Source: Macrocystis pyrifera
Taxonomy: Eukaryota; Sar; Phaeophyceae; Laminariales; Laminariaceae
DNA: 64,000 nucleotides
Direction: 5' to 3'
Assembly (NCBI GenBank): GCA_031763025.1
Contig: JASSKH010000014.1
Span: 8,050,563 to 8,114,562, forward strand
Shown: positions 10,346 through 51,311 of the stretch, in pieces
How the letters are laid out: each line of letters opens with the position of its first letter
Position numbering within the stretch: position 1 is the first letter of the stretch
Translations under genes and position numbers: made by a program
Notes under the pieces: generated by a model
Told to the model about the DNA's origin: nothing
The model's input: the letters and a program-made list of their open reading frames with translations, nothing else
The model's database searches: none

Positions 10346-11346
10346 TACGCCATCTCCAGTATTATGACTCAGTCAATACGTCACCATACCACACACCTCG
10401 TATAGCAAGCACCCTCTGGCCGATCCTGCGTGCTCGTCCGCGCATACACCGGGCCCGAGCGGGGGGGGATGCCATGCCAACCGTAACAACGAATCCAATT
10501 GGTGCGCACGCAGTGTGAACACGGAAACAACCCCGTAACGCCTCCGAAGTGGTCATCTCTACCAACAGCGGTCCTCAAGTCTGACCCCACGCTTTAATCA
10601 CTCTTACTGTTTTTTCCTCCTCACCCCCCTTTTTTGTGTTTTATCTTTTTCTTCACGTCTGCTCCTCTGCTCAAACCCCACAAATAAAAAATCAAGTACT
10701 GTAGTAAGAAACTGCGCGAGCGGCAGAGGTGTCCACGTCGGGGCGGAGGGGGGTGCAAGGGTGTATTGCACACTGCCATCTCGCGTCTCTCCAAGCTACA
10801 CGACCATGAAAAATCGACACCCGCCGAGTACTATGCAGTCCAGACGCAGCAGACTCCCGAGTCTACCAGAAGGGATAGCAGGGGGGGGAGGAGAGGGGGG
10901 CGTTTATAGCCTCTACGTAGTCTCCTGTCTCTCTAACATGTAGTACTATTAATACCACAGATCGAACGCCCGCTGAGTGTGGTCCCACCACAATGACTCT
11001 ATCGTGCAAAGTATCGATTCATCTACGTCACAATTGCAATGACCTCGCGAAGACACAACAACCACTCCCGAGCCTGGCGCAACGCCTCGGCCTGTGTCCC
11101 TTTGGGCGGGGGGGGGGGGGGGGGTACACTCTCCTCCATCCCCTCCCTCGTCTCTTTAGACAAGACAACGACAGGTTGGTCGTCGTTCCTACCACACGAT
11201 GCCGCCGCAATCCATCTACCATTAGTACAGTGCTGTCTAGTATCTGCACTTGCAAACCACCACTTCTGATTTGTCAGGCCAAAACCGCGTGCACAGCCAA
11301 TCCCCGAGCCTGTCAGAAGGCCTCGGTCAGCCGGTATGTGGCGTGA

Positions 11347-18309: not shown

Positions 18310-18353
18310 CGCGCTGGACCTATCGTAAAAAAGGGAAAGTTGGCGTTTTATTG

Positions 18354-18413
18354 GAGGGAGGGAGGGAGGGAGGGAGGGAGGGAGGGAGGGAGGGAGGGAG
18401 GGGGGGGGGGGGG
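18354..18413. repeat. (GGGA)n microsatellite followed by poly-G
   Basis: About twelve GGGA units run into a G run. The tract lies 45 bases upstream of the presumed start codon of the membrane protein (as CCCT on the coding strand), where it could act in the 5' leader or as a promoter pyrimidine tract. Confidence 0.95.
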
Positions 18414-28000: not shown

Positions 28001-31000
28001 GCATATTGGAACAAGGCAACCAATGCCGCCCCAAGCACGACACCGGAAGTCCCAAGAGTCGAAGCAGTCGGCCCTATTTTTATTGTTTCCAAAATTTATG
28101 CGTACGTACCAGATCACGCATCCGTGGGACTACCGATGGATATACCCGTTCGAAGATAAAAGAGCAACGACTGGATCCTCTTTCACGAGAAAAATACGTA
28201 CGATATCAAGAATCAACGGACAAAAGATGCCATACCAATCAGTATCCGACCCACCACTTTCTGACGGCATCCGATGGGCGATAGATGGCTTCTCGACCCA
28301 GATCTGAGATGTCTCGGACTGCAATTGTCAGTTTCGGTGTTTCTGTTCAAGTGTTACATATACCTCCGTAGAAAAGCAACCATATGTTTTGGGACCAAAA
28401 TACACTCGACAACTACTTTTGGTACCAATACTTTGCAATAAATGGTGTGGGATAATTGCTGCAGCACCAGTTACTATTAATATTACTGTCGATACCAGGT
28501 ACTTTACAAAAAATAGTGTGGGATAATTGTTGCAGTACCAGGCATGCAGTAAAAGGGCATCGACTCACTTGAACCCGAGAGGATAACGGCGACGATGAGG
28601 CCGTAGATGCCCAGCACACCAGCCATAACAACGGGGATGATGTTACGCATCACGAGTCCAGGGTTCATCACACCCATGGACGAGATACCCACGCCGGACT
28701 TGGCGGTTCCGTACGCTGCGCCGATGTCTTCAAATTTCCGCATGAGACAGAAGCGAGATACAAATCATACGCGAAAACGACAAGGACACGGAAACGAGAC
28801 GTGAGGGTCGACAGGAAAAGTCGGAGTTGGATCGTGGAGCTCTGACAAGCAAGCGGAAAGGAGGAGGAGGTGGGGGGAGGGAAGCAAAGCTGACGTGTTG
28901 ACGATTTTGATGGCGACTGCTGGACGCTCGTGGAAACTACACACCCAAATAAAAACAATTTACGACTTTCTGCATTTTCGAAGAACAGGTAACTACACAC
29001 TGATAATATATAACGTGCTTGTAGGCTCAATGAACAGAAATACGGTTAGGCTCCATGAACAGCAACAAAAGGACTGCTGTACTCTGTATGAGCGCTCTAT
29101 ATACGTACGCCCACAGCAACCACTTGGGTCGAGGATGAAGCTCGACGAAAGCACTGTTAACATCGAAAATACAAATCACTTTCCTGCCTCAGATCATTTA
29201 TAAAACTAAAAAAAAACATCTGTGAGATCAAGGATTTCGTCGAAACTCAATCTTCCCAAGCTGTGTGTGGTACTATGGGTTTTACATTTTTATACTATTA
29301 ATAGTCTTTTTTTGACCTGCTTGCTGAAAGAACACAAAAAAATGAAAGCTGAGGGCCGTTCAAGTGCAAATTGTTCGACTCATTGCCATGAACGATCGAT
29401 CCACGCAATCCTCAAAGTGCCTACGTTGCGCAACCACAGCAGCAACCGTAGGCCAAGTCAATTGCTATTAATAGGTGCGTGCGTACAGCTAGCTACCTCT
29501 CACCCACCGCCTACTCGTGAACACCGTTCACTCCGACACACTGGCAAGATAGAGTATCAGCTCTTACAGCTTTCTCTCCAAGCAAAACCGAGAGCCCTTC
29601 AAGCTCACGAACGCACGCGAGACAAAATGTGTAACGACAGCAACAGCAACAACCAAATACTTGAAACCGTACATGAAAAGCTATGCAAGCTACGACACCC
29701 TTCTCGTACCGCAGCAGGCAGATGGCACCCCGTCACGCGCAAACGAAGCTTCAGGCACGAATTGACACCAGCAGGGCGCTAACCCTGTCGGTGGTTCAAA
29801 CCAACCTCGCGCATCGCTTACGTAACGTGACCAAGCGGCGGAGATAGCTGACTCAACACGGCGGCGTGTAAGTTTACAAGCTCAGGCTTGCCTACCTAGC
29901 CAACTAAACCAACGGCCACAGCGCCTGATACACACAGAGACTCCACCACCTAATGTTAGATGCTATCGGGGTTACGCACTCGGTATTGACGCTACCTAGA
30001 GTGTGCCGGAGAGACCCAAAGAGACCTACCTTCCGAGCGCTGGTAGACGAACGTGAACCCACAAAAAACCAATGCACACTCCTTGCTCAAACTACTGCTG
30101 TACCAGTACGAGTATAAACAAAACAAAAAACTCAACATGTTGAGAATATTTTTCAACACGTGTGCGAAGTGCCCACATACAAAACAACCGAAACATGGAG
30201 GGCTCTCAGTGTGTCCTTCGTTGGTCACATTTTGGTGCACCATCGAGAGAGGCTTCAGGAGCAAAGGCATTGGATCGATGACGGGACCAAGCTTCTGCAT
30301 CTATGATACCGTTCACGGGGGGCGGAGCGACGTCGGTGCTGGCTGGTCCTGCCTTTCTGTCGAGAGAGCATCTCCAACTTCCTCCAACAATCGACCAAAC
30401 ACTACAAAAAATGGAAAGCGCACGTCGGCAAAAAGTGACCTGTAACACCACCAGTTAACCAGGTATAAAAAGCACACCCAGGAGTGCTCACGTTCACATC
30501 GCAACATATGCAGACTATTAATACAATCGCGCTCGAAGCTTTCTCGGCGCCAAAATAAGAGCGCAAAGCGGTCAACACTACCATCCAAATCCACGCTTGC
30601 TAGTGCGTATGACACTCCTACATACGTGCTCTCGAAATCAACCACGACCACGGAATCGCTGCTGGAAGCATCGCATCAATCGATCCACTCCTACACAGCA
30701 GCAGACAAAACAGCAGTCACGGAAGACTAAAACACGCCTCAGGGTCAAAATCACTCGAATATAACCAGAACCAAAAAAAACAATGCTGGGCGGAGCAGTG
30801 GTTCGTAGTTCTTTTAGCGAAGTGTATAGCAAGGACGTATTGCTGCTGCACTGCCTGCGCTCCCTCGTCGTTTGTGCGCAAGCGCCCACGGGGCTAGGCC
30901 AGGTTGCAGACGTTGCTTCGCGTGCTGCAGCACGTTGCGTGCGCCTGTTATGTGGATCGACGACCACGCAAGAGCCATTAGTTCTTCGCGTGGCTTCCTT

Positions 31001-31939: not shown

Positions 31940-34900
31940 ATGCCGATGATGCTAGCAGCAGCACTGCTGTTTCTGATAGTAGTGCCCTCCAAATTCAGCT
32001 CTGCCGGCGCGACACGTCCGAGAAGTAACGTGTGCTACGGCCTAGAAAACCATGCTGCCTTCATTGCTGGGGTAGCATCTGCATCGCATGTTCAACAAGC
32101 AGCATCCGCATCGCGATGGCTGTCTCAAGGCGGTCGTACGCGCTCACGCTCTCTGCAGTCAGACAGTGCGCCTATCGCGTGCTGCGCTAGACTGACCAGG
32201 AGGCAATGGGGGCATCTCAGCGACTTCAGCAAAATCAGCGGCTGGCACTTCACGAAGCACAACAGCAGGTGTGACTTGGGTTCAGCGACGGCTTCTATTA
32301 TTAATAGTCGTAGACCCATGATGCGCCTCGACATTGATGGTGATGATGTTGCGCCGCCACCGTCGAAGCTCGAGCTTGACGGCGCAAATCCCAGTGCTGG
32401 TGCTTGGGCTGGTAATGGTGGGAGTGGCAATGGTGGCAATGGAAATGATGACCCTGGCGTGCAATCTTTGGTGGATCTGATAGAGCTCCTTCATGCCTCG
32501 GAGAATCCTCTGTGGGATCTGATCCGCTTCGAGGTGAGTCACCGAAACATACTGGCTTGGGCAGGCACCATACCGCGTATCGTGTCGTGCGAGGTGCCAG
32601 GTGTCGTCTGTGTTTGGACGAGTCGACGCAGCATCCTCTCCTGGGGCATTTCAACCTACTGTACGAGAGCTGATGGAGGAAACTCTTGTCTATTATGGGG
32701 TTGGCATGCTGGCACAAGATCCATAATTTGTCCCGCGTCGAGTCCAGTGTCAGAGTGCTGCTGCTGCTGCTGTGCCGTCTCTACGGCAGCAACGTACAGC
32801 AGTATTAATAGTACGAGTACGTTCCTGGCCTTCTATTAATAGCTTTCAGTAGATGCATACCAGGTACATGCCATGCAATAATGTTCAGCAGTGAGCACTG
32901 CTGTACCCACGGGTACCAACTGTTTATATGCCTGGTACCAGTATACTGCTGTAAACCAGTGCGTATACCAGTATATACCAGTTTACCAATATGCCGGTAC
33001 TTCATTTCCGGCGAGAAAGCTCTTTGACCATGCCGATATGGTACCTGGGGCATTAGACTTCAGCGGTACTACTACTCGTACTACTCGTACTGCTGTACCA
33101 GTATCTCGACTTCCGGGGTCGGAGTTCCAGCTGCAGCACTCTGTACGGCAGTAGCACATTATCGGTGCGTTGACTGAAACAAGGCAGTTTCAAAACAAAT
33201 ACCAGGTACCAGGTACCTGGTATGCAGAAAGGTTTCCACCTCGGACAGATCATGATCTATCGATCTACAGATCAGATAGATCATATAGTTCCTCACCTAC
33301 CGTTGTGAGAGGTTGTGCAGGATATGCGTGGTACATATCCAACCCAGGAAACATGTGCTACTGCTGTAGATCATGCAGGTTATACGGGTCCCACCCCGCA
33401 ACATGAGCTCTACAATATTCCGACCAAGAATGCTATATACCGGCCCTGAAAGATCTGTTATCGATAGATAGGTCGTGAACTGCTGTGACTATCGAACATC
33501 TGCCCGAGGTGTGCTGTAGTTTCAATCGTCGCTCTGGCGAGGGAGACTACACGATCGGTACTTTCCATGTACCGGTACTCCGTACTGCATTGCCAATTAA
33601 GTGTAGAACACCTGATACTTATGATTCACGGGTTGCGTTGGGTTGGGTTGGGGTCGATCGGGGTGGGGTGGGGAGGAAGTGGGTTAGGTTCGGGCTGAGT
33701 AAGGATGCGGCAACACATGGGTGTGTAGTTAGGTTGAATGGGCGGGTTGGGGGGTTGGGGGGATTAGGTCAAAACGCAGATCTAACCCATTTATCAACCC
33801 TTTGGAGATACTACAGCGAAGTGGGTGGACAAGTACAACAAATGAGCGGCGCGGCCTTATCAATCGTATACTACCGTAAGTATATAGGGTGGGTGTGCAG
33901 CAGTACAAGCAACATCACGCCGCGCCCACAGTATCGTGCATATCCTCGCATTTTCGTGGCTCGGTTGCTAAAGTTATCAGAAGCCAATAAAGCTGTGTGT
34001 CACCGTCACGCTTTGTCTTCGCTTTTTCCCCCTCTTGGTTCCCTTGGTGGGGTGAGCACGTGAACACGCTTATTGGCGAGTTGACGCAGAAAGGTACCAA
34101 GGCGAGGAGTTCACAGTTCAAAGTCGACCCCAAGTTACGCGAGTGCTCCAACTCCGAGCCGTCATATCTTGAATCATCTCTTGAGCCTTCACCGTCCCCA
34201 CAACATTCAGACGACTAAAATTTGCACTATGCTCGAGGGTGTAACTCTGCCGTGCCATGACGCCCGCATTGACGCCCCTTGTCGTCCTGAAGGACATTCA
34301 TACATTTGCGTTAAATGCCGGAACGCGGGGCGGAGAAGCATATACTAATAACATATGCCAGATATACTTCAGCCGTACATGGCAGAATTGTATACATACG
34401 TACTTCCACATCAGTAGTAGCGCTTATACTCGTAAGGGATATATATATACATGTGGCAGATAGATAGACTAGGGCTTTAATCTGCCCTTGGTATTTCATG
34501 TCATTTAGTGTCTCCTCTTCTTTATACTGCTGCACGTTCTATTTGCTGGCTTCTTTGCTTGGCCATGGTTGGAAACGAAGCAGGGTCGAGAGGCGTCGAA
34601 GCAGTCTCACGTCTCCTCGATGATTCACGGCTCGGTGCTGGCTCGCACTTCGCTGGAGGACGCCATCACCTGCGACGTGGCGAACAAGATGGCCACCACC
34701 TTCCTCAGCCCAACAGAGGTTAGACAGAACGCTGCGGGCCACGCTGACGCTATGCTTCTAGTAGTAAAATGCTACCATTGTGTTGCTGTGCTGCGTACTC
34801 GTATTCGTGTCTGTATACATGTTGTTAATTGGTTTACTTGTACTACTTCACACAGCAGTAGTGCTGTAGTATAATATTACGGGGGACCATAGTAAATAGG

Positions 34901-36842
34901 ACCAAATATTGTCAGTAAAAATAGGGAAACATATAGGGTTTTGTTTGTACCGTTGGTCCTGTTTACTATGATCTCCCGTAATAGTAAGCGTTCAAATAGG
35001 CTAACTCCAAGTACAAGTATGAGCACAGCAGTAGTTTGTCCGAGCAAATCGTGGGTGTGGATTGTGAAGAGGTAATGTTTGCATGATCGATCCGATGGTA
35101 CTGCCGTTGATATGAATTACGGTACTACTATATTACTGCTGCATTTCCATTGCCATTGCAATGTTGTATGGGCTGGCTGCATGCACCTGTGCTGTACCAA
35201 CGCGGCAGCATGCAAGTGTGTGCTGGCGTATTGCGCGCGAGCGCAGGCCTGTGTGTTTTCGGGTGCGGCATGCGGGGCGCACCCTGAAAATACATCTCGG
35301 AGGTTTTGCTTGTTATAAACCGGCATCTGGTAGGCCTTCTCTTGCGGGCGGGCTGCTGATAATGCTTCAGAAACTCCTCGGCTCTAAGCCTTTGATTGCT
35401 GCAAAACTAATATCACACTCGTTCCAAGTAGTTTGTCCCCAAAACGCAGGGTGCGGTTTCAAGAGGTCAATCGGTGGCTGACTTGGTATTGCTCCAATAG
35501 AACTGTGTAAATATTGCAGAGTGCAGGCTGTGAAATGAACCGACCATGCTGCTCTGCATCTGGTTGTCTGGTTGTTTTTGGCTGCAGCACGCTCGAAAAC
35601 ACCGGTCCGCCTTAGGACGTGAATGTTGACGGTTGACTGGATTGATTCTTCTCGGAAATAAATGTGCACACACCTGGCTACCGTGTACGTACTCGTACTG
35701 ATAGTAATTCTACAATATTGGTGCTCTGCCTTCCATTGTTCCGCCGCCGCTCCCTCCCTCCCTCCCTCCCTCCCTCAGCCCGTGCTCCACGGACACGGGC
35801 AAATGCAGAACTTGTTGCGCCGCGCCTCGGATCATGTACCGGTACTATATCTGATGTATTTAGTAGATTATTGCAATAAATGACGTCGTGTCGAACGGCA
35901 GTGGAGGTGCTCCTCGTAACCGACCTCGCTCCCGTATTTTTGTCTATCTCTTGTGTGGCGTTTTTCTGCGGCGACTTGGGTGTGGGTTGCTGAAGGAGCC
36001 GTGAAAAAGACGGCCCCCCTCGATGCCTTATGGCGACGATTAAAGTTGGCGAGACAGCTCACGTTCCGCTTGTGAAGTGTCCGTTGTTGTCGGTGTTCAA
36101 TGGTTTTTCGTGTGACTGGCGCGCTTTTCAATTGCCGGCATGCAAAGGCGCGTATGTGCTCCACTCGCTCCTCGTGGCTGAATCGCTCTCGTAACAATTA
36201 TATTATACATGGCCGACCGTTATCGCACTCACTAACGGCAACCATTACATCTGCATCTACTGTAGTTCGAACCTCCGCGCTAATTGTTCCTCCCTTCCTC
36301 TCCACCCCCTTCCCTCCTGCCTCCCCTCCCCTCCCCCCCCCCTACCAACTCCATGCATCTTCCCATCCCAGGTGAGCTCGCTGATGTGCGAAATGTTCAC
36401 AGACGAACCCCTGTTGGACTTCGTTGTGGCGGAGGACCTGCTGGCGCACGCCATGCAGGACGCCTCGCTGCCCGACGTCCTAACGGCCATGCTATTCCAC
36501 AAGGGCTTTACCGCTCTGACTACGTACCGTCTTATGAACTGGCTCTGGCGCAGGGAAAGACGAAATATGGCGCGGTACCTGCAGTCCATCTGTTCTGAGG
36601 TGGGTTTCGTAGCATACTAATGATAGTATTAATAGTAGTGATATTTGTAGTAGAGGTAGTACTAATATTAGTAGTAAAGGTAGGAGTAGTTGTAGTATTA
36701 CGGGGGTCTATAGTTAACAGGACTTATGTCATACATAAAAACCTATATATTTTCGTAGGTATTTTTACTAACAATATTTGGTCCTGTTAACTATGGACCC
36801 CCGTAATAGTATTAATAGAAGTAGTAGTAGCACTACTATTAA

Positions 36843-36880
<38 letters not shown>

Positions 36881-39800
36881 TTAAAATAGCAGTGATAGTA
36901 GTAGTATTGATAGTAGAAGTAGTAGTAGCAGTAGCAGTAGCACTAATAGTAGTAATAGTAGTAGTAAAAGTACGGTACGATCCTAGGAGTGCACCTGCAT
37001 TTTCCTGTGATCCTCGCTTGAATATACGGGTAGTGACTACCTGGTATACTTTAGGACCTCTATACCTCGCCAAAAAAATGACATTTCGGAGAACATGTAC
37101 CTGGTAGTATGGCATATGGCTTAACCCGACGGGCAACCCCATGCCCTACTGCACGTAAAGAGCGAATAATACTCGTATTGTCGTAAAACGTTGTAACATT
37201 ATTATAATATTATTAATGAGATTCCTACGATAGTGGGTAGTCTCTTAGTGCCCTTAAGGAGCCCTCCGCCAGCCTGAATATGTTCAGCAAAAAGCGCTAC
37301 TTCTCTACGTACCCATATTTATCGTAGCACGGTGTATTACTGTACTGTGTATTCCGTGCTGGGCGTCGCTCGAGCCGAGTTGACGGGCCAAATTTATGCA
37401 GACACGAGTCTGTGGGAGAATGCATCACGCCCAGACACTGTTGCGCCGATTTTAGCGTGCCATGCCGCTTTGTTTCAGTGTGTTCATGCCATCAATAGGT
37501 TAGGATTAAGGTTAGGGGCTAGATACAGTAGTTGACGACAGGAACTAATCGCAGACACGAGCCTGTTGGAGAATATCACAAATCAGACACTACGGTACGG
37601 GTTTGAGTGTGGCCATGGCTTTCTGGCATGGGGGTTTGGGTTAGGGTTTGGTTTATACAGTTGCCGACGGAAATAGTCTGTAGACATAAGGTCAGACACT
37701 GTAATACTGTCTTTAGTGTGGTCATGGATGTCTAGGTTAGGGTTGGGGTTATATAGTTGACGACAGGAACTATTTGTGGACACGAGCCTGTTGGAGAATA
37801 TCGCCGACATACAATATTATACCGGATTTAGTGTGGTCATGGATGTCTAGGTTAGGTTTGAGGTTACGGATTAGATGATTGACGACAGGAATGATTTGTA
37901 CACACGAGCCTGTTGGATGATACCACATGCCAGACACTGTGTTACGTTTTTCTAGTATTATTTGGTTAGGGGTGTCTAGGTTAGGGTGTTAGGGTTTAGG
38001 GTGGATATACCCCCCCAAAACACAGAAACAACACAAAAAGCAGTGTATAGCGTCTGACCTGTGCTTGTCTCCCACAGGCTCGTGTTCACAATACTTGCGC
38101 CCCGAAATGATCGGGCGTAAGACGAGATGAGGGTTGTCTGCATGTTTGGTGCTCCGGTGCCTCCCGCTGCGGCCGACTGTAGGAGCGCTTTCTGAGGGTT
38201 TGTTTCGTCTTCGAACCTTGACTGTAGGAGGTGGGCGTGTCTCCTTTTGGATGACCAGTGCATCGAGGCGCTAGTAGTAATGCGTGTGACAACCACGGTG
38301 TGGCGTGCTCATGCGTTGATGGTTTGCTACTCTCGGCGTGCCTGACTAATTTTTGGCTGTCGATGGGCGTGAATAGTAGAAGCCTCCTCTTCCTCTTCCT
38401 CCTCCTGTAATTGCTACTGGTAATACGACTACTACTATAGTCTATTAATACTACTACTGCTACTACTACTACTACTATTACTACTATTACTACTACTACT
38501 ACTACTATTAATACCACTACTTTTACCTCTGCCTCTTACTATTAATAGTGCTGCTGCCACTTCCACTTGTACTGTTACTTGTTTTCCTACGGTCCTACGG
38601 TCCTACGCCTACCTCTACCCCTCACACTCACACTGCCCTTTTCGGCCAGCTTGCCCCTTCCCCCCCTGTCCAGGCGTCTGTCCGCGTGGGCGCATCGCCA
38701 GCACCCACCGACCCCTCCCCTCCCCGCCCACCTCGCGTACGCCTCTCCCAATGGCCATGACAACTGCCTTTGTGACGTGTGCTCACTCTCCGACTGATGC
38801 CGTCATGTTGTTGATTCTTTGGCAGGTATGTGCCGCGGACATTCACCCGGCTGCTCGCATAGGCAAGGGCATCCTCATGGCCGGGGGCTGTGACATAGGT
38901 GAGAGATGGCATGCCATCTTGCGCCGCCTTCGCCTTCGCCTTCGCCTCGTAGCATTCCACTATTCATGTGGCATTACTCTTTATATGCTCAAGTATCAAT
39001 ACATACGAAGCAGCTCTGGTGCATGCCACCTGCGTCGCGAGTGTTGAACCCTTTCGGTGCTGCACACTGACTATTAAGTAAGATGTCCCCCTAAAACATA
39101 GATGTGGTTCTAAAGGGTTTCTACTGCAAAAGAGGCATACGCTACTATACTAATCAGAACCCACGATGGACCGGAAAAGCGTGTATCCCCCCCGTGTATG
39201 CCTAAACACTATATTTGGGTATGATTACTGCTGTAAGTTTGCAGTAAGATAGGTGGAAAGGGACGCAACAGCTACAGCAGTATGCACGTCTTGTCCCTTG
39301 TGGGAACAGAGTGAACTAGACCACACGAGCAAAAAAAGAAAATTCTTGGTATTCTCAACCGTCTTTATTTCAATCTAATTCTTATGTGAGCACGCAGCAA
39401 GTAGGAATAGGGGAACATGCTACGCCCCCGCCGAGACGACTCATCATATTGTATATATAGGAATATATATATATATATATACCGTGCGTAGTTCGGACTA
39501 ATTTTTTGGTATCGTGCCCCGATCGAAAGGAGTGGCCGATGCTGTCTGTTATCGTCACTTTTTCGTGGTCACGTCTTCCCTCTGAACTCCCGAAAGGGAT
39601 GCTGTACTAGTTATATTAATGAGTACCAGGTACCTGGTATGCGATTAGTAACCACACATGAGACAGATGCATCCAAAGAGCACGGTCTAGACCACCCAGA
39701 TAACATATCTGCCCTTGCGAGATGCTGTGCAAGATCTTCGTATTAGTATCAATAGTACAGACCCAACCCAGGAATAACGTGCTATTACGGGGGGGGACGA

Positions 39801-42800
39801 TAGTAAATAGGACCAATTATTGTTAGTAAAAATAGGTAAACATATAGGTTTTTATGTATACGATAGGTCCTATTAACTATGGACCCCCGTGATACTTTTA
39901 GTAGCCTGTACGTATCGTATATAGACTTTATTACGTTCACCTCAACGAGTAATTTGTCTTGGCCACACTTGATTAAAAGGCCTTGCTGAGCTCTCAGAGC
40001 TCCCAACCGGAACACGCCTGCCTAACTCCACCTCTCGGAGAACCTTCCGGGCGTCCTTCTTCGATTTCCTGCCTTCATTAAATCCGAGAAAAAAATCCCA
40101 CTCTAAGGTCAAGTTATTTTTTCTGAAGAGTCGAAAAAACGCCAAGAAATGGATTTTCAGAACTCGAGTCAGAATCGAAGGGCAAGTCAAAACTGAGCGA
40201 GAGAAACCCTCCCACACTGAAATCAATATAAAAGGCCGAAAAACAAAATTGACGAACGAAAAAACGAAAAAAATAGGCTCAGCGCAGCGCCAGTTTTTTT
40301 CGTACATGGTACCAGGTATCATACAAAGCACGAAGTTCTTCTTTCGACGATACAAAGCCTACGATGCAAAGTCGTGCAGTAGTGGACAAACCTTGATAGT
40401 AGATCTTCCTGGGGTATCTATTCATAATTAGGCACTCTAATTGGCTAGGGGTATGTTTTACGCGGCTTAATCAACTTTCGAGTCTTTCCCAGCCACAGCA
40501 TCCCGAGTCATCCCGAGTCAACCTAGAGTCTTCCCAAGCTCAGCATCCACGCCGGCCGAGCCAACCTAGAGTCTTAACAAGCACAGCATATCCCAGCACT
40601 GACCACTGGCATAGGGTTCGGGTTCGGGTTAGGGTTAGGGTTCGGGTCGGAGGGTCGGCTTCAGACGTCCAACACGAAACCCCCATAAAGATCTACTATC
40701 AAGGTCTGTCCACCCCTCAAGTCGTGAGCTGTTGAAATTGACTAATAATAGTGTTTGTCGGCTTCTTTGTTATACGGGTAGGAGTAGGAGGTAAGGGTAA
40801 GCACCTATTTTGCCACAACACAACAACCCCAAGAGCCAGAAACGTGTCATCTTCAAGCATATATCGCACGCGAAGAAAGTCAAGTCTTCAAGCCAGAGCC
40901 AAGGAGGAGGAGGTGGTGGTGGAGGCTTTGCCGGAGGTGGTGGACAATCTTCTCCTTCCTCTCCATATCATACGATGCATTTTGTGTATGTATCTAACAC
41001 GTGTGCATAGTGATGCGTGTGGAGCCCGGAATGTTTTGTCCTGCGCCATTTAGCACTTGGCATTTGCAAGCAGCCACGTCACAACCCAGGCGGGGTTTTT
41101 CCTGCGCAACTATTACGGGGGACCATAGTAAATAGGACCAAATAGTGTTCGTAAAAATAGGGAAATATGTAGGTTTTTGTCTGTACCGTAGGTCCTATTT
41201 ACTATGGTCCTCCGTAATACTGTAAATTCTTGTCGTTTGCAAGCCGTCCATCGCGCCACGTCTTGAGCATCCTGTGTGCTCATACTTTCTATTTTACTTG
41301 CTTCGGCAAGCGTGGCGCGTGGCGACTAGCCGCCCGCGAAGCGGAGCGCCTTGTTCATATATACATACACGGCGGCATCAGCCCGTAGCGAGTAACTTTA
41401 TGTTAGTGTGTCAGCGGGATTCTTCGTGCTACCGTAGCACCCTTTCGACGGCCAACGTACACGGCCAAATAAACGCGTACATCACACTATGTTAGTGTGT
41501 TGGTGAAATTCCTAGGGGCTCCACAAAAAATCGTGCATTTTTTGGGGGGATCACTCCAAAATATCCCGCTGTTTCGGGGTTTTAAAATATCGAGGGCTTT
41601 TTTTTTTGCGGGGAAGCCATGCTATCCTCCCCCCCGGGGGGATACGTTGTAGGTATCCCCTACTGGGATGTCGGCGAAATTGGATAACACGGCTACGCTA
41701 TGTTACTCCCACACGCCCGCTTTACCAGTAACACAGGTAACACATGTTAGATCTCGGGAAGATCCAAAGGGTAACGTAGTGACATTACGTTAGAACGACT
41801 TCGGCCCCAATGGTAACTCAGTAACATGGAGTCAGACCCGGATTGGTTTTTATGGTAACACGGTAACGGAATGTTACCATCAGATCTTCACTGACGGTAG
41901 CACCGTAGCATAATGTTACAGAGACTTCCGCATTAAGGCTAACATCCTAACACAATGTTACGTATGGGCCGGCCAAGACTGTAACGTATCTAACGTACGA
42001 GCTAAAAGTGTTACGTTATCCGACCCTAAGGCAATCAGATGGGGGGTCCAGATAACGTAGTGTTAGTAGTGCTGGCCATTGCGTTATGTCCCGTTAGTGT
42101 GTTATCTGTAACACGATGTTATGTGTTAGTAATGCTGGCGAACATGGTAACGTTATCTTAGGGTGTTACGTATAACATTCCTCCTAAGGGTAACAAAATG
42201 TCAGTTTGTCGCGTCTAGCGCTGCGTGGACAATAAAATTGTGTTGTCGTGTTATTGCGGGGGGCCATAGTAAATAGGACAAAATTTTGTTAGTATAAATA
42301 TGGAAATATATGGGTGTTTGTGTGTACCACAAGCAAGTCCTATTAACTATATTCCCCCGAAATAGAAAATATGCGGATAACGATCTGGGCATGTTAGAGT
42401 GATAACGTACGTGTTTGGTCACAGCCTAACACCACCGTGTTACGGTGTTAGTTCAAGGACTGATCACAGCATGACGTCATGTTACTGTATAAGACCTGGA
42501 CGAGACCGAGAAACAACATAACGTCAAGGCTCGTGCACGTTCGTGGGTTTCCAGTTAACACTGTGTCACCGCGTTACCGTGATCGCTCCTCTAGTGCTAA
42601 GACTATGCTATTGCGGGGGTCCATAGTAAACGGGACTAATTTTTGTTAGTAAAAATAGGTAAATGTATAGGTTGTTATGTATACCATAGGTCCTATTAAC
42701 TATGGACCCCTGTAATAGTACGTTACCACGTTCCTGTGTTAGGCCCCATAAAGTAGATAAGTGTTATCCGAGTGTTACGTTATCCGAGGTGTGGAAGTTT

Positions 42801-45800
42801 GATCACTCAAGTGCGTCAGCGATAATAATATAGGTGCAATAATTGGCATCGATGTCCATCAGCCGAGCCCCGGGTCACCAGGCGTCTGTCGCTCGTTATT
42901 GTCGCTCATTATTCTTCCCTCTGACTATTACTCATTGCCGTCGGGGATTCGTCGAACATGTGTTACGGGCCCTTGGCATCGAAAAACTGGCATTAAATTT
43001 CCAGTGCGGGGCCTTAAGCGTCGACGGCGGCCATCACGCCGCCGGCGAAAGCCCCTTGTATATACATACACATATACAACATTCCCCTCCGGAGGTGAAA
43101 TGTGCGAAGCCAAAAATTCAGCCAGTAGTATACTCTACAGATACGTACCCATCCGTAGTGCGTGTATGCGTACCTAAATATATTGTATATGAAAAGAAAG
43201 AGTATTAGTAGAACAGCCAGCAATCCGAAGAGGGGCAACGCAAGGGTAACGTGAGCACCCTCCTTACGCAGGTACTGGTGTACCTCAGTCTTAGTAGCAG
43301 GGAAGCAATACAGCGCAGCAACAGCAGCAACAGCAGCAACAGCAGCAGCAGCGATACAGAGCAGCAGCAGCAGCAGCGATACAGAGCAGCGGCGGCAGCA
43401 GCAGTAGCAGAGTGCTGTAGCACGTGAATTTTCTGCAAGTACAACAACTATTGATCACTGCGAACTGCTGCGAAGAAGTGTCTACTGCTGTACCTTGCCC
43501 GTTCCAGCAATGTGCAAGAAAGAAAATAGGGTGCAGTCGCCTTGCCGTCTGGATGGCGGCCGATTTGTTCTCAGCGGCAAGACCAGACTTGAACAGCAGC
43601 AGGGCCGTTAACAACAGTACGTACCGCATGACGGCGATGGTGAGCTGTAGCGGCTCTGCTGTGTATGCGGTTTTTATCGAATCAGCAGAACTACTACTAC
43701 TGCTTTAGGACCGTGGACCTTTGGACCTACAGTAGTAATACAGCAGTACGGACATTCAAATTCCTACGCGGTGCATTTTTGTTCAGTCATAATTACTTTT
43801 GAGCAAGTAACGATACAGTGCGCTGATGGATCAAGATGCATCGGCACCCGCAGCTGCAAGCTACACCTACTTGCAGCAGGCGAACATACCCTGGTAGTCC
43901 GGCAAAAACAGCAGGGCAGGTACGTAGCCACTGCCCGACGGCGAAGAGGTGGATGCGCCAGGTGATTTTCCCGTGGGAAAAGATGCGAACAAAGGCTACA
44001 GTAGACTAGAAAAGAAGTTTGGTTCATTGTAAAAAGCCGAAAGAAGAAAGAAGAAAACACCTGCGGGCCTGCAGGCTGCTGCTGCTGTACCTACGTACTT
44101 GTAGCAAGGAGACAAAAAAACTGACAGTCCTGTTGAAGCTATTCCCGGAAAGTGAAAAACGAAAAGCTCCCCCGAAAAGTTCCGGTTCTCGCGAATCATG
44201 ATTGATGGCGAGCCAAAGTCTGACGAAGGGCTCAGTGAGCGACCGTCCACGCCATCGGCGTTTTTTTTTCCTTTATCTTTTTTTATTTCTTTTGTTTTTG
44301 TCACTTTTACTTTCCAGCTTAACGCGTATAAAGTTTTACCCTCAGCAATCTTCTGGACAAGCGGTGGTCACTTTTTTGTTGTTCTTTCTCCCCCCCGGCA
44401 CGTGCCTTCATTTTTATCGCATACAAGGTTCAGCATTCCCACTGCTCGTCGATTTTCATCGATTGTTGCTACCTCACGCTCTCGCGCTTTCCGCTAATCG
44501 ATTTGTACGCAAAAAAAAATCCCTGCGCGTACGTATGCACTCGGTGGGACTCGAACCCACGATATTAACCTTAGCTGTTAGTAGGCACGCGAACCACCTA
44601 CCAAGCCACCGGGGACGCCCGCTATATACAAAATTTACCGATATCATGCAGATCGCATATACATATACGATATACTCGTACATATCAGGAAGTTGTCTGC
44701 CCTGAAATAGGAAGTATGGTGGCGTGAGACTCTGATCTGTCCGATTACGAGCGGAGCCACATAAATATACCTATGATGCCATAATGATCCTCAGCCTGAT
44801 CGGATCCGTTTTGGGTCGGCGGATCTCTCCCGCCTCTGACCGTCTTTTCGCGCGGTTTTATCGCGGGGCGTACCCCCTGAACCGCCCGGCGTCGGAGGAT
44901 CCGCCCGCTCAGCACCGTAGCACCCGCGCGAAGCTTCGACGTTGAGATCTATAAAGGAATCTCCGAAAATCCCTGCCCTGCCAGTGTTTTGGCCTATGGT
45001 CTCTCGACAGGGTGAATGCTTTCGCGTGGTTATTTCCGGCACGTCCTCCCCGACCTCCGACCCATGGAGAGGGTCAGCTACCCGGCCGGCGTCGCTATTG
45101 TGGGGGGCTGCACGGGTGGCTGTGTCTGGGACATCGATGGAACGCCCCGATCGCACACATGCCACCCAGGCTTAGTTGAGAACTGCCTCAAAATATGAAA
45201 ATATGCCGGCGATATATGAGAGATAATCGCATGTCACCTACAGCCAGCAATATTTCTGACGGCCAGCAGCACTTACGGTGTGTACTATCGTACAGCGGCA
45301 GCAGCAGTGGAGCTGTACTGCGTGGCTGCGGAGATGTGCAGCTACAGCAGTACCGCTACCGCAGCTGCTTTGACGGCAGCTTTCTCCGGAGCTGCGCTGT
45401 CGGTCATCGCTTACTCTCTGGGTTAAAAGTTTAGTGACACCGCCTTGTAGGATTCCGCCGCTGTTCGGTTAATCGGGTAAGTAGTCGTCAACATTCTGCC
45501 GCCTTTTCATTTCTTAATTCGCTGTTATTGACGATATACGATCATCTCACTCCTCAGAGTGGAGTGCGGAGCGCACGCTCTTAATCTCTTGGCATCGAGT
45601 CTCAGCCTCCTCCTCCTACTCCTCTACTTTTTATACTCCCTTCACGCGAGTCTAAGACCGACGCCCGTCCAGGCCGCAGGCGTAGCCCCTTGCAGTGTCT
45701 ACCTTGCTAAGTTACTGCGGCCGCCAAAAATGTAGCTCATTCCTTAGTTGGGCGTGCCTTCATTTTATCATTTTAAGCTCGGTGAGACTGCCGAAGATCC

Positions 45801-48800
45801 GCACGAACGGCCCGGAAAGTCTCCGACACCGAATGCGTGCTTGTTTCTTGTTTCTTGTTTCTTGTTTCTTGTTTCTTGTTTTTTTTTTGTTTTGTCTTTT
45901 ACCCATGCCTCCCGCCAGCGCCCACGAGTTGACCACACCGCACTTGTCACGTCATTTTATATATATAGGAACAGCATTCCAGGTACCAAGCGTATCAGGT
46001 ACCAGGCATCCATCACCGCGAGTCCCTACAGTAGCGAGACCTACACCTTATTACGGGGGGGGGGACCATAGTAAATAGGACCTACGGTACACACAAAAAC
46101 CTGTATTTTACCCATTTTTACTAAGAATATTTGGTCCTATTCACTATGGTCCCCCGTAATAGCCTCTTTATGGGTACTATTGCGGTACTATTGCGGGGGA
46201 CCATAGTAAATAGAACCTACGGTACACACAAAACCCTACACATCTACCTGTTTTTACTGACAATATTTGGTCCTATGAACTATGGTCCCCCGTAATATTA
46301 ATATTGATATTGCTGCTGTACATACTGCGCTGTACATAAACCTAAATCGTATGTTTCTTCCAAGTACTATTTTGTGTCCCCTGAAGGCCATGAACTCTTT
46401 TAGGACTGCAGTCCTAGAACTGCAGTCCTAGAAGGTCCTAGAAGAGTTTAAAGCCTTGAGGGGTTACAAACAGTACAGGACACCCATCAACGAAACGAGC
46501 AATGCAATGTGAACAGCAGGCTGACGTTTGCAGGAGACTAAGAAATTCGGGAAACGTTTTTTCCTGCTACCTTATTTTCAAAACAAAATGGGATATACTG
46601 AAGTTAGTGTAGAGTGCACCCATTTTCAAAACAAAAAATCCAGCCTGCAGATAGTAGTTCATATTTCCTGTTTCTTGCTATTACGGGGGTCCATAGTTAA
46701 TGGGACCAAATTTTGTTAGTAAAAATAGGTAAATATATATGTTTTTATGTATACCATAGGTCCTGTTAACTATGGACCCCCGTGATAGGTCTCCCGTATT
46801 GTAGCACAAGGCAATGGATGCTCCGTCTACAGCTTGCTTGGAAATATAAGTTTTAACGAGATCCTCGATCTGGCAGCTGATATTTTGTACGTGTATCGAT
46901 AAAAAAATCACACCCTGGACAACTACTGTTTCAATAGTCTATTGTGTCTACAATTGATTCAGGAGGATGTGTGTTAATTGGATTTGTCTTGACAATCGTT
47001 TCTGGTGACTTGTCTATTAATTGAAATTGTATTCGCGAGTGCCCATTAATTGAAATTGGCCAGGCAATTGTTTTCGGCGATTGTCTATGAATTGGAATTG
47101 TCCAGTCAATTGATTTCGAATACCATCTACTAGTTGGATTTGTGTGAGCAATAGGTTTCGAGTGTTGCCTATGAATTGGAATTGTCCAAACAATTGGTTG
47201 CGGATACTGCTAATTAACTGGGATTATTCAAATTGATTTCGAGTGCTGATCCAATAATTGGAATTGTCCAGACAACCGATTTCGGGTGTTGTCCACTAAC
47301 TGAAATTGTTCAGACAATTGATTTCGGGACCTGTCTATTAATTGGATTTGTCTGAGCATTTGATTTCGGCTGCTGCTTATTAACTGAAATTGTCCGCACA
47401 ATTGATTTCGGGTGCTGTCAACTAAAGGACCTTGCAAATGATTGCGTATAGAGGCAATACTAGCATGGTGGTAGTGTTGTGTACTGACCAAATCAAGTGT
47501 AACTCTACAAGTAGTTGCCAGCTATCAAGTAACAGAGCCCTCTTGAACTCGATAGTCATGACAATTCTAACTAGTAGATCGCTTCCGAAACCCATTGTCC
47601 GGACAATTCCCATTAATGGACGGTCTCTCAAAGCAGTTGCCCCGACAAGTCCAATTAATGTAAATCGCCCGAAGTCGATTGTTCAAGCAATTCCAATTGA
47701 TAAGACAGCCTGTGAAATCATTTGCCAGCACAATTTCAATCGATAGGCAGTCTCCGAGCTCATTTGTCTGGACACGTGCAATTATTGAAAAGCACCAAAC
47801 ATCAATTGTTCAGACAATTCCAATTAATGGACAGTCTCTGAAATCAATTGTCGGGGCAACTTCAATTGACAGAGAGTCTCCAAAAATATTTGTCCGGACA
47901 ATCCCAATTGTTAGACAGTGTACCCGATATCAATTGTCCGAATAAAGCCACTTAATAGACAGTATCCAAGATCCGTTGTCTAAACAAGTTCAATTGCTAG
48001 ACAGTCTATGACATAACTTGCCCGGACATTTCCAACTATTATGGGGGTCCATAGTTAACAGGACCTATGGTATACATAAAAATCTATATAATTACCTATT
48101 TTTATTAACCATATTTGGTCCTGTTAACTATGGTCCCCCGTAATACTATTACGGGGGTCTATAGTTAACAGGACCTATGGCATACATAAAAAACTATATA
48201 TTTAGGTATTTTTACTAACAATATTTGGTCCTGTTAACTATGGACCCCCGTAATACTACGTCGTGGACAACTTCGTGACTCTGTGGTAGGGGCAATAGTC
48301 TATTGATAGGTCTGATGTCCAAGGCATGAGCAGAAAAGGGCGGGACACCTCAACTTTAGCTTCGTATTTCGTGCCCGCACGTAGGAAGTTTTGATACAGC
48401 TTGGCCCATGCATGTGCTCAGATGTACATCATTAAAAAAAGGTTTCACGAAACAAAATAATCCGTGCCTGGTATGCACTGTTATTTTTTCATGTACGGGC
48501 AGTTGATTTAGGAGACTGCCCACCAATTGGCTTTGTCTGAAGTAGTTTTGGAGATTTTGTATTAGTCGAAATTGTCGGGATAATTGATTTTGAATACCGT
48601 CTATTGGTTGGAATTGCCCGGACAACTGATTTAGAAAGCAGTCTGCTATTTGAAATTGTCCGGACAATTGATTTTGGAGTCGGTTTGAATTGGAAATGTC
48701 GGGCCAATTGACCTGGGAGAGTGTCTATTAATTGGAGTTGTCCGGACAAATACTTTTGGCGTCAGTCTACTAATTGAAATTGTTCCGACAACAATTTGGG

Positions 48801-50720
48801 GTGGCCGACTACCAATTGGAATTGTCGGGACAATTGCATGAGGAGAAAGTCTGTCAATTGGAATTGGCCAGACAATTTATTTAGGAAAAGGTCTATTAAT
48901 TGGAATTGCCCGGACCATTGATTACGGAGACCGCCTATAAAGTGAAATTGTCTGGACAATAGGGCCAGGGAGGGGTCACTTAATAGAAATTGTCTGGATA
49001 ATAGAGCTCGACGCCTTTCAATTAACTGGAACTAGGGATCACAATAGACAGTCAATTGCAATAGGAAGCTATTAACAGACTATTGGACTATTGCCTATGG
49101 CCCAGGGTGTGATTCTTTCGATATATAAGACGGCTGGAAAGTCAATACGTAGCAAACCTAGGAAGATGACACGTGTGTCTCGTCTTCCAAGCATATCTCT
49201 CTCAACCTTATGCCACGCGATTGCTGCTGCCCGGGCGCGCTCGCGCGCGCGCTTAATGATGGTGGAACGAACAGTTATCGGGGAGACGGCGGTGGTCGGA
49301 GACAGTGTGTGCGTCCTGCATGGCGTTACCTTGGGGGGAACGGGGAACCAGACGGGAGACAGACACCCCAAGGTCGGCAAGGGCTGCCACATCGGCGCTG
49401 GCTCGTCGATCCTTGGGAACATTCCGATAGGAGAGGTGAGGAAAAGGGGATAACCTACTAAAGACTACCAGGTACAGCAGTGTATTTAATTAGTCAGCGC
49501 TGACCTCACGAAGTATCATACGTCCTTTGTTGGGTGTATAGAAGGAATAGGTTCTCAATACGAGAGGCCATAGTAATTAGGACCCATTATATTCACGAAT
49601 ACCTTAATATTCCGTTATTTTTACTGAGCGAATTTGGTCCCTATTGCCATGTTGCACGGGGGACCATAGCAATCAGGACCCGTCATACTGACAAAAACCT
49701 ATACTTTGGAGTATATTCCAGTATTTTTTTCAAGCACATTTGGTCCTGGTTACTGTGCTCCGCAGCAACGGACTACTGTAGTTTGAGGCGTACTTAGTAT
49801 CGAAACAAGTTTTGTCGAAAGGTTAAGTTTGCACTTTTGTTTTCTTCATTTCCAAACAACTGCCTAAACAAAATTGAAGTGTGGAAATTTTCCCAACAGG
49901 GTGCCAACAAGCTAGTATAGCTTAAATTTCCATTTTTTTTTTTTTTTTTTCTGGCGTTTATTAAATCGACAAGAAAAAAAATGGAAACCTGGAAAAAATC
50001 GATGTGACCCAGAGAAGTTTGAGGGGCGCAATACAGGAAATAAAATACGTAATAAAAGTAAGGGAAAGGCCACCCCAAAGAGACAAGGTCAAAGAGAAGA
50101 AACGCTTGAGAGATAAACGGGGGGTTAAGAGAAGGGATAGGAATGAAAACGTGTTAGCACGGCCCAATGGACTTCGCGAACACGCGGAAAGTGTGATTTC
50201 GTGTAGGGGACCTGGACCTGCCAGAAAGGAGCAAGAGGTATACCGGTAGCCGCTAGGAGGGGGGAGTAGGTGCTCAAATATGCCCTTGTGACAAATCAAT
50301 AGAAAACAGAACTCACATAGTGGGAGAGCGTAAAACGTACAAGCAGGAAAGGGATGTGTCAGAGGAGACTACGAAAATTGACCAATGTGGCATGGAGGAC
50401 TTGGGTGCACTACATAGTAGCGAGAGAACGATCGCTATCCTGGGAGATAGATGGTGGCCGCAGGCGGCGAAATAGGAAGCGGATAAGATTAGCAAAATAC
50501 AAACTATGTAGTGTATGGAAACAACGTATTGAGCGCCCAACTCTGTTGGAGGTATCTATCAAACTAAAAACGGTGCTAAAACTTTGTAGCAATGGAAACA
50601 ACGTAATGAGCGCCCAACCGTTGGAGGTGTCTCTGTTAGTAGGAGTAGGAACGGTGCTCCATCTCGAAAGGGATGCGCGGTCAATGGCCAAATGACTAGG
50701 GCGAGCAACATATGAGTACG

Positions 50721-50785
<65 letters not shown>

Positions 50786-51135
50786 ATTTCCGGCGCCGTC
50801 GTCCGCCAATCTCTTGCCATACGTTGGTTCGATTATAACAGGGCTCGCGTATCGAGGCCGCCTCCGTCGTCGTGAAACCCGTCGCGCCGTACACGGTCAA
50901 CAGGGGCGTTCCATCCAAAACGGTGGCGTTTGTCGTGTGCGACCCTCGCCAAAGCGCCGGGGTTGGAGTTGGGGCTGGGCTTGGCCAAGACGTGGAGAAC
51001 GATGGAGATGGAGACGGACATGGAGGAGCATCGGTTGGCGAAGTGGGAGGTTTGCGGGGCGAGGAGGCAGGGGCGGATTCGAAAATGCTCCCGAGGTTGT
51101 TTACGAACTACGGCTCGTTATATATCGGCGTATGA
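31940..51135 (+). CDS. Serine O-acetyltransferase (CysE/SAT family), six exons, altered active-site pair
   Basis: SAT makes O-acetylserine from serine and acetyl-CoA for cysteine synthesis. Exons: 31940-32533, 34584-34718, 36372-36599, 38826-38898, 49275-49435 and 50842-51135. All introns are GT-AG and the phases agree (0,0,0,1,0), giving 494 residues. The helical N-domain includes HGSVLARTSLEDAITCDVAN and FHKGFTALTTYRLMNWLWRR. The left-handed beta-helix includes ADIHPAARIGKGI, VIGETAVVGD, VTLGGTG, GDRHPKVGKG and a SVVVKPVAPYTVNRGVPSKT end. Counting from E. coli CysE, D92, D143 and H193 are kept (D273, D324, H374), but D157-H158 reads Ala338-Gly339. The opening residues MPMMLAAALLFLIVVPSKFS look like a signal peptide, perhaps part of plastid targeting. 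An in-frame ATG at 32318 would give a 368-residue form without it. The tail is about 65 residues beyond the usual end. Intron 4 is 10.4 kb. Confidence 0.93.
33233..33475. repeat. Dispersed repeat E in SAT intron 1
   Basis: CAGATCATGATCTATCGATC, then GTTGTGCAGGATATGCGTGG and CATATCCAACCCAGGAAACA, is collinear with 51960-52190 and, in parts, with 39640-39780 and 61245-61310. Confidence 0.65.
34875..34983. mobile_element. Short inverted-repeat element, copy 5 (SAT intron 2)
   Basis: TATTACGGGGGACCATAG to CTATGATCTCCCGTAATA. Confidence 0.88.
35754..35777. repeat. (CCCT)n microsatellite
   Basis: Six CCCT units in SAT intron 2. Confidence 0.85.
36696..36808. mobile_element. Short inverted-repeat element, copy 6 (SAT intron 3)
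   Basis: TATTACGGGGGTCTATAG to CTATGGACCCCCGTAATA. It lies inside a TAG/TAC trinucleotide-rich stretch, about 95 bases after the exon-3 donor. Confidence 0.9.
36809..36970. repeat. TAG-rich trinucleotide microsatellite, imperfect
   Basis: Runs of TAG and GTA interrupted by TATTAATAG. Its complementary type (ACT/TAC) appears at 38420-38525 in the same intron. Confidence 0.85.
37360..38012. repeat. Tandem repeat of about 130-160 bp with telomere-like ends
   Basis: About five diverged units run ACAGGAACTAATCGCAGACACG, GAGCCTGTTGGAGAATATC, CAGACACTG, GTGTGGTCATGG and GTCTAGGTTAGGGTT. Each ends in GGTTAGGGTT-like sequence (37493, 37633, 37732, 37848, 37968). A short inverted piece of the unit (CACAGGCTCGTGTTCAC) lies at 38076-38092. 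The whole is inside SAT intron 3. Confidence 0.8.
38420..38525. repeat. ACT/TAC trinucleotide microsatellite
   Basis: Mostly ACTACT and TACTAC units with TATTAATAC interruptions, in SAT intron 3. Confidence 0.85.
39783..39894. mobile_element. Short inverted-repeat element, copy 7 (SAT intron 4)
   Basis: TATTACGGGGGGGGACGATAG to CTATGGACCCCCGTGATA. It sits at the end of a repeat E fragment, so it inserted into or beside that older repeat. Confidence 0.87.
40613..40656. repeat. Interstitial telomere-like tract
   Basis: GGGTTCGGGTTCGGGTTAGG followed by GTTAGGGTTCGGGTCGG: six to seven GGGTTM-type units, alternating TTAGGG and TTCGGG. Confidence 0.85.
41111..41219. mobile_element. Short inverted-repeat element, copy 8 (SAT intron 4)
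   Basis: TATTACGGGGGACCATAG to CTATGGTCCTCCGTAATA; close to the family consensus. Confidence 0.9.
41430..42200. repeat. Diverged GTTAC/GTAAC palindrome-rich array
   Basis: Short inverted pairs such as GGTAACACGGTAAC, GGAATGTTACC, CATAATGTTACAG and ACACAATGTTACG recur every 43-55 bases between blocks like ACTTCCGCATTAAGG. More than a dozen GTTAC or GTAAC boxes can be counted in the stretch. This looks like an old minisatellite with small palindromes, distinct from the 42-bp array further on. Confidence 0.65.
42252..42364. mobile_element. Short inverted-repeat element, copy 9 (SAT intron 4)
   Basis: TATTGCGGGGGGCCATAG to CTATATTCCCCCGAAATA. The right end is degraded. It interrupts the GTTAC-rich array. 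Confidence 0.82.
42609..42717. mobile_element. Short inverted-repeat element, copy 10 (SAT intron 4)
   Basis: TATTGCGGGGGTCCATAG to CTATGGACCCCTGTAATA, again within GTTAC-rich sequence. Confidence 0.87.
43311..43412. repeat. CAG/CAA trinucleotide array
   Basis: About 30 CAG or CAA codon-like units, interrupted by CGATACAGAG. On the minus strand it reads as poly-Leu, which creates false open frames. Confidence 0.9.
44340..44505 (+). repeat. Dispersed repeat H, second copy
   Basis: Partner of 5490-5700 (see there). It lies just downstream (in minus-strand reading) of the tRNA-like element and may share ancestry with its flank. Confidence 0.5.
44526..44618 (-). ncRNA. tRNA-like element with Pol III boxes
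   Basis: On the minus strand an A-box-like GGTGGCTTGGTAGGTGG is followed 30-40 bases later by a perfect B box, GGTTCGAGTCC, inside a T-arm hairpin (GTGGG/CCCAC). A run of nine T lies about 20 bases further on (44510-44518), as at a Pol III terminator. The acceptor and anticodon stems do not pair properly, so this is not an ordinary tRNA gene. It is best read as a decayed tRNA or the head of a tRNA-derived SINE inside SAT intron 4. Confidence 0.5.
45838..45882. repeat. (TTTCTTG)n microsatellite
   Basis: Six 7-base units, then a T run, in SAT intron 4. Confidence 0.92.
46049..46161. mobile_element. Short inverted-repeat element, copy 11 (SAT intron 4)
   Basis: TATTACGGGGGGGGGGACCAT to ATGGTCCCCCGTAATA. 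The left G run is expanded. Confidence 0.9.
46189..46297. mobile_element. Short inverted-repeat element, copy 12 (SAT intron 4)
   Basis: TATTGCGGGGGACCATAG to CTATGGTCCCCCGTAATA. A direct duplication, TACTATTGCGG, lies just before its left end. Confidence 0.9.
46679..46787. mobile_element. Short inverted-repeat element, copy 13 (SAT intron 4)
   Basis: TATTACGGGGGTCCATAG to CTATGGACCCCCGTGATA. Confidence 0.9.
46950..47425 (+). repeat. 42-bp palindromic minisatellite, block 1 (forward)
   Basis: About eleven units. The typical unit runs TCTATTAATTGGAATTGTCC, then AGACAATTGATTTCGGGTGCTG. Its centre approaches the perfect 16-base palindrome AATTGTCCGGACAATT. Units differ by 10-25 percent. Because 42 is divisible by three, false 14-residue peptide repeats (SGQFQLVDNTRNRL) appear on the minus strand. 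Confidence 0.88.
47575..48025 (-). repeat. 42-bp palindromic minisatellite, block 2 (inverted)
   Basis: About ten units in the opposite orientation: CCGAAATCAATTGTC-type, then CAATTCCAATTAATGGACAG. Separated from block 1 by about 150 bases of unrelated sequence and from block 3 by two inverted-repeat elements and about 240 bases. Confidence 0.85.
48037..48145. mobile_element. Short inverted-repeat element, copy 14 (SAT intron 4)
   Basis: TATTATGGGGGTCCATAG to CTATGGTCCCCCGTAATA, directly at the end of minisatellite block 2. Confidence 0.9.
48147..48255. mobile_element. Short inverted-repeat element, copy 15 (SAT intron 4)
   Basis: TATTACGGGGGTCTATAG to CTATGGACCCCCGTAATA. One base separates it from copy 14, so the two form a tandem pair in the same orientation. 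Confidence 0.9.
48497..49065 (+). repeat. 42-bp palindromic minisatellite, block 3 (forward)
   Basis: About thirteen units in the same orientation as block 1, for example GAAATTGTCCGGACAATTGA at 48653-48672, which carries the perfect palindrome. It ends about 210 bases before SAT exon 5. Confidence 0.86.
49556..49650. mobile_element. Short inverted-repeat element, copy 16 (degenerate, SAT intron 5)
   Basis: ACGAGAGGCCATAGTAATTA to TTGGTCCCTATTGCCATG; the outer ends are worn. It adjoins copy 17. Confidence 0.6.
49652..49769. mobile_element. Short inverted-repeat element, copy 17 (degenerate, SAT intron 5)
   Basis: TTGCACGGGGGACCATAGCAA to TTACTGTGCTCCGCAGCAA. Copies 16 and 17 are the most worn of the set and so probably the oldest. 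Confidence 0.65.
50655..50720. repeat. Module A of the G-tract repeat (SAT intron 5)
   Basis: GCTCCATCTCGAAAGGGATG, CGGTCAATGGCCAAATGACT and GAGTACG, then the long C tract. Confidence 0.75.
50721..50785. repeat. Poly-C tract, 65 bases, before SAT last exon
   Basis: Pure C. It ends 56 bases before the last SAT exon (starts 50842), within reach of the branch point and acceptor of that intron. TTCGATTATAACAG then forms the acceptor. Confidence 0.97.
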
Positions 51136-51311
51136 GGAATGCGCGCGGGGTGGGGTTGAGGGTAGAAGGCGGGTGGGGGGGGGGGGGGTGGGGAGGTGGG
51201 GGGGGTGTTGTCCACGAACTATGGCTATTTGTACACCGGCGTGTGGGGTTGGGTGGGGGTCGGTGGTTGGGTTAGTGAGTCGCTGGGCGGGGAGCGGGGG
51301 TGTGTGTGCTC

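Follow-up and report, generated by a model that had tools for sequence, protein, structure and literature searches.

We identified a gene for a CysE-type serine acetyltransferase (SAT) in which the Asp157-His158 pair (DH) of the active site, in E. coli CysE numbering, is replaced by Ala338-Gly339; the other five of the seven active-site residues are kept. SAT catalyses a regulated entry step of cysteine synthesis. The gene lies within a stretch of 64,000 nucleotides, hereafter the window (C194:8,050,563-8,114,562; G+C content 50.1%), of an assembly with 537,376,219 bases in 223 contigs, which was searched as a whole. An earlier note made from the letters of the window had proposed a pseudo-enzyme, and this is the reading that we find best supported, because the DH pair is gone, five active-site residues are kept and three other loci of the assembly carry DH. 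With middling confidence we consider the gene to be a catalytically dead SAT paralogue that has diverged, is kept as a coding gene and may act as a non-catalytic subunit tuning the supply of O-acetylserine.

Gene model and active-site register

The gene was modelled with six exons spanning 31940-51135 on the plus strand and comprising 494 codons. These contain neither an in-frame stop nor a frameshift, and none of the five introns has a broken splice site: all are of the GT-AG type with consistent phases. The elements of the model are the following:

31940..32533, plus strand: exon 1 (modelled), a 198-aa N-terminal extension with a hydrophobic start; open frame up to a GT donor
34584..34718, plus strand: exon 2, start of the SAT N-terminal helical domain; AG/GT boundaries
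36372..36599, plus strand: exon 3, rest of SATase_N; D273 is the Asp92 equivalent and the next Pro is changed to Ala (tblastn, alignment)
38826..38898, plus strand: exon 4, DIHPAARIGKGILM followed by AGGCDI; D324 is the Asp143 equivalent, Asp157-His158 is Ala338-Gly339; boundaries, read directly, ag/GTATGTGCC...GTGACATAG/gtgaga
38880..38897, plus strand: six replaced codons, AGGCDI for DH-A/G-T-G-I/V, the last whole codons of exon 4 (alignment, position checked)
38899..49274, plus strand: phase 1 intron of 10,376 bp at the catalytic site, absent at the same place in the three other SAT-type loci
49275..49435, plus strand: exon 5, VIGETA...GDRHPK...GNIPIGE, equivalents of Glu166, Arg192 and His193 kept; boundaries ag/TTATCGGGG...ATAGGAGAG/gtgagg
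50842..51135, plus strand: exon 6, GSRIEAASVVVKPVAPYTVNRGVPSKTVAFV closing the beta-helix, then a predicted 66-residue tail ending LYIGV

Exon 1 is the least certain of the six, as it has no Pfam match and its third-position G+C content (0.54) is below that of the other exons. The helical domain was recognized by PF06426 (SATase_N) with 54.2 bits on the residues of exons 2-3 (cut-off 21), and a whole-genome search gave 28.9 bits from exon 3 alone. The generic PF00132 model scored 21.9 bits on exons 2-5, below the cut-off of 27. A phmmer comparison of exons 4-6 with solved SATs including E. coli CysE (1t3d) placed the beta-helix in SAT register: 102 columns aligned without a gap, with a best E value of 8.9e-32. 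Residues can therefore be matched one to one with CysE, which bears out the exact spacing that the earlier note had described; the two exons in which it had located the start of the beta-helix (38826-38898 and 49275-49435) are both present and phase-compatible. In exon 6 the ungapped match extends as far as KTV and the tail beyond is predicted. With its length of 73 nt, exon 4 cannot be skipped without breaking the frame.

In the ungapped CysE register D92, D143, E166, R192 and H193 are kept as D273, D324, E347, R373 and H374; for D92, D143 and H193 the six-exon model returns the numbers given in the earlier note. It likewise reproduces Ala338-Gly339 at the place of D157-H158, where DHATGI reads AGGCDI. 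DH stands at these columns in 37 of 37 SAT domains found in one scan of viral contigs; these were selected through two other conserved SAT peptides and so form a canonical sample, in which unusual members may be missing. A scan of genome contigs with peptide patterns gave one distant actinomycete SAT. In E. coli CysE, activation of the serine hydroxyl is ascribed to His158, with Asp143 next to it, and the gonococcal SAT site is described as being built by two neighbouring subunits, one of which contributes Asp96, Asp161 and His162 and the other Asp147, Glu170, Arg196 and His197 (PMC8786284). Gonococcal numbers were converted to E. coli numbers by subtracting 4, a conversion made in the present analysis.

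The window protein resembles CysE-type SATs of known structure (E. coli CysE, PDB 1t3d; soybean SAT, 4n69) in its two-domain architecture, its ungapped beta-helix and the residues D92, D143, E166, R192 and H193. It differs from them in the exchange of D157-H158 for A-G, of P93 for Ala and, as predicted, of the terminal Ile for Val, as well as in the long N-terminal extension and the six exons of the model.

Bacterial contamination as the origin of the SAT locus was ruled out by the introns and the multi-megabase scaffold. Close to exon 6 we observed a run of 65 C (50721-50785, 56 bases upstream of the exon) and, shortly past the stop codon at 51210-51243, a near repeat of the exon 6 end (gtccacgaactatggctatttgtacaccggcgtg vs gtttacgaactacggctcgttatatatcggcgta). 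Elsewhere the window contains an inverted repeat (230-4771 and 8011-12545), whose arms of ∼4.5 kb are 96-99% complementary in eight collinear pieces around a centre of ∼3.2 kb. Two ATP-synt_C matches on the minus strand (25069-25317 and 28504-28764, with 55.1 and 50.6 bits) are probably exons of a V-ATPase proteolipid gene, and a 487-codon open frame on the same strand (17365-18828) has no Pfam match at E 0.01.

Other SAT-type loci and signs of maintenance or decay

Searches of the assembly with PF06426 and the SAT domain yielded four SAT-type loci, namely the window copy, C202, C215 and C206; the SAT-domain search also gave three matches of low significance on C204 (E 0.3-0.9). A second, normal SAT had been named in the earlier note as something to look for, and all three other loci carry DH and are free of introns at the corresponding place, so that the window copy alone lacks the pair. 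C202 (near 1,384,570-1,391,165) and C215 (near 2,404,320-2,407,940) are CysE-type and share 38.0% (98/258) and 35.1% (101/288) identity with the window protein. Unlike it, they read FIDHGTG or MIDHATG, continue from DIHP to RHPK without an intron and both end in Ile: C202 has GVFIDHGTGIVVGETTVVG within one exon and ends GLDI, C215 has GVMIDHATGVVFGETAVVG within one exon and ends VFNI. C206 (near 2,802,421-2,804,232, minus strand) is a more distant SAT of the short type. It shares the beta-helix start DIHPAA...DHGTG...HGVTLG and has GILIDHGTGLVIGATAV within one exon, but is only distantly related to the window protein (43% over 89 aligned positions), carries GATAV for GETAV and has DH present.

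A further difference from the window copy was seen in C215, where seven consecutive G at ∼2,406,240 put the reading frame out shortly before the DH motif. This frameshift is either genuine or an artefact of the assembly; in what is probably a long-read assembly it implies that base errors occur here, or that SAT genes decay. The published giant kelp (Macrocystis pyrifera) assembly is described as comprising 537 Mb in 35 scaffolds and 188 contigs with 50.37% G+C, its sequence being derived from PacBio reads by means of Canu and Racon (PMC10498591). When exon-4 DNA (261 bases) was compared with the assembly, its only match was itself, with no second haplotype or copy.

Third-position G+C values of exons 2-6 are 0.82, 0.78, 0.67, 0.76 and 0.64, compared to 0.467 in the introns; the C202 copy has 0.77, and the similarly high level suggests, as far as base composition can tell, that the window gene is maintained. 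Among 62 columns conserved to at least 95%, 17 are broken in the window copy and 12 each in C202 and C215. A second alignment, from which a Nostoc record (no N-terminal domain as read) and the actinomycete locus were left out, was examined for columns invariant in all other sequences: here 13 of 64 are broken in the window copy, 6 of 57 in C202 and 5 of 56 in C215, three of the last five being gaps or frameshift X. Outside DH, the window copy has lost the Pro after Asp92, a Phe before the beta-helix (now Cys), a Gly near the helix end and the VA before GVPSK (now NR). Several of the broken columns lie close to where the beta-helix ends, a position as compatible with decay as with a new role. 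The description of a well-kept protein with one site replaced, as given in the earlier note, is thus correct for the site but too strong for the remainder, in view of the 17 broken columns.

In a domain tree of 103 columns (midpoint root, identical viral-contig domains kept once, C206 left out; topology without support values) the terminal branch of the window copy has a length of 0.62, compared to 0.52 for C215 and 0.47 for C202, and none of the three pairs with another. The long branch and the absence of pairing among the kelp copies therefore speak for an old paralogue and not for a recent dead duplicate. An old paralogue under somewhat relaxed constraint would fit these data.

Some of the same observations could be read differently: the gene may have been inactivated recently and be on its way to a pseudogene, its catalytic codons having been lost, perhaps at the origin of the intron or by a donor shift, with the frame still whole. 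We regard this as unlikely. In its favour, the window SAT exceeds the two other CysE-type copies of the assembly both in broken conserved columns and in the length of its terminal branch (0.62), its model lacks the terminal Ile, a long and repeat-laden intron sits exactly at the catalytic site, and the C215 copy is frameshifted too. The broken columns (17 vs 12 and 12 of 62) also count against a retained dead paralogue. However, recent inactivation has to accommodate a frame that is whole over 494 codons, modelled splice ends that are all intact and a high third-position G+C content, and the window copy exceeds C202 and C215 in broken columns by a modest margin.

The long intron and the search for a spliced Asp-His pair

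The replaced codons directly adjoin the 10.4-kb intron, and among the four SAT-type loci only the window copy has an intron at that place. A splice fault in the model is therefore possible, which weighs against a dead paralogue, as do the presumed PacBio/Canu/Racon origin of the assembly and the frameshift in C215 with the base errors or SAT decay that they imply. We thus considered that DH is present in the mature protein but hidden by unseen splicing or by an assembly error. Its appeal lies in the position of the replacement at an exon end beside this intron, in the presumed type of assembly (PMC10498591), in the poly-G frameshift of C215 and in the 31 splice combinations given below that have DH correctly spaced on one side, but the evidence from the window makes it doubtful, and we rank it marginally behind recent inactivation.

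Between the DIHPAA codons and the end of exon 4 there are only two GT donors, 38890 and 38899, both located 3′ of ILMAGG. Donor 38899 scores 7 of 9, within the range of the other donors of the gene (6-8), and at least 7 is reached by 121 of the 3,988 GTs in the window; donor 38890 is phase-compatible and scores 4 of 9, and its product would still be without DH. Splicing that restores Asp-His had been named beforehand as a check, and we followed the genomic splice paths by joining an in-frame donor (GT or GC), a single additional exon of 2-90 nt and an acceptor. Of 251,180 such combinations, 2,922 place DH anywhere before GETAV and 31 give it the canonical spacing to GETAV. In none of these 31 is the spacing to DIHP canonical as well, and none resembles the DH loop of the family; the closest candidate misses by one residue, relies on the GC donor 38850 and loses AARIGKG. 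In a stricter register test requiring GKG before DH, none of 216,902 combinations restored the pair. A spliced restoration of DH with one extra exon of this size and GT or GC donors was accordingly rejected, as none of the predicted products is in register on both sides.

Within the whole window, no stretch on either strand codes for DH followed by Ala/Gly/Ser, any residue and Gly/Ser. Upstream of exon 5 the peptide LMMVERT looked at first like a suggestive DH remnant (2 of 200 shuffles with the canonical template, 12 of 200 with the window's own residues). It was rejected as chance, since 967 of the 3,762 AG sites in the window score equally. For the tail of exon 4, ILMAGGCDI, an equally good resemblance to SAT templates was seen in 20 of the 2,944 stop-free stretches that precede a GT; another figure, 4 of 2,944, is biased because its template included the window's own ILM. 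An assembly error would have to explain six codons that are changed in register, unlike the usual indel error, and the single copy in the assembly offers no second haplotype with DH.

The long intron is rich in repeats. A short palindromic repeat whose ends resemble GGACCATAGTAAATAGGACC and are often ∼90 bp apart is found between 22606 and 60824 (30 end matches vs 0.01 expected). Half of these matches (15 of 30) lie inside the 10.4-kb intron, and the repeat, which looks like a MITE-type element, also occurs near the SAT exons of C206. Diverged 42-bp tandem repeats form three arrays at 47231-48960 in the same intron.

A possible role as a non-catalytic subunit

A changed acyltransferase, one that retains activity but acts on another substrate by means of a different base, is improbable: the equivalents of H193, R192, E166, D143 and D92 are kept while the serine site and the beta-helix end are altered, as such a change might produce, but no replacement base is found at the site (Cys341 and Asp342 are in the loop but elsewhere), and the active-site His is described as conserved across beta-helix acyltransferases (PMC8786284).

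If a catalytically dead paralogue is assumed, the loss of His158 would deprive the site of the base that deprotonates the serine hydroxyl, and that of Asp157 would remove part of the serine site; O-acetylserine would then presumably not be made. Judging from the fold and the five other residues, the SAT trimer or hexamer may still form. Provided that the gene is expressed, a mixed trimer with active kelp SATs would contain one or more dead sites. Since SAT active sites lie between neighbouring subunits, the likeliest role would be that of a dead subunit that mixes or competes with active kelp SATs and could thereby tune the O-acetylserine supply.

An engineered inactive SAT in tobacco, a laboratory-made protein, reportedly has no activity and still enters the complex. 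In the rice mutant astol1, an inactive OAS-TL retained in the cysteine synthase complex is described as altering SAT activity and sulfur flux (PMC7925690). The likeness is one of idea only, a dead subunit in a complex that changes flux: in astol1 the dead partner is an OAS-TL inactivated by a point mutation and not a natural SAT paralogue (PMC7925690). As a regulatory partner of cysteine synthase, the role offered in the earlier note, the window protein finds no direct support. Its predicted C-terminus, LYIGV, has Val in place of the OAS-TL-binding Ile, a point against the dead-paralogue reading too, and C202 and C215 end in Ile (all three ends are predictions). The terminal Ile of SAT is described as critical for OAS-TL binding (PMC8786284), so the predicted Val argues against normal binding.

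An open-literature search combining 'serine acetyltransferase' and 'pseudoenzyme' gave nothing on the subject, and in the accessible text of a Saccharina latissima paper (PMC3429442) 'serine acetyltransferase' occurs once, in the references. One could speculate that kelps keep a dedicated non-catalytic SAT which co-assembles with active SATs, makes or spoils inter-subunit sites and so sets the supply of cysteine and glutathione; we put this forward tentatively and think it rather unlikely. Should the replacement reflect decay or an assembly fault, it would call for caution in the annotation of kelp genes. If the dead-paralogue reading is true, a natural SAT lacking its base, in a genome that also has copies with DH, would provide a test of a structural or regulatory role of SAT apart from catalysis.
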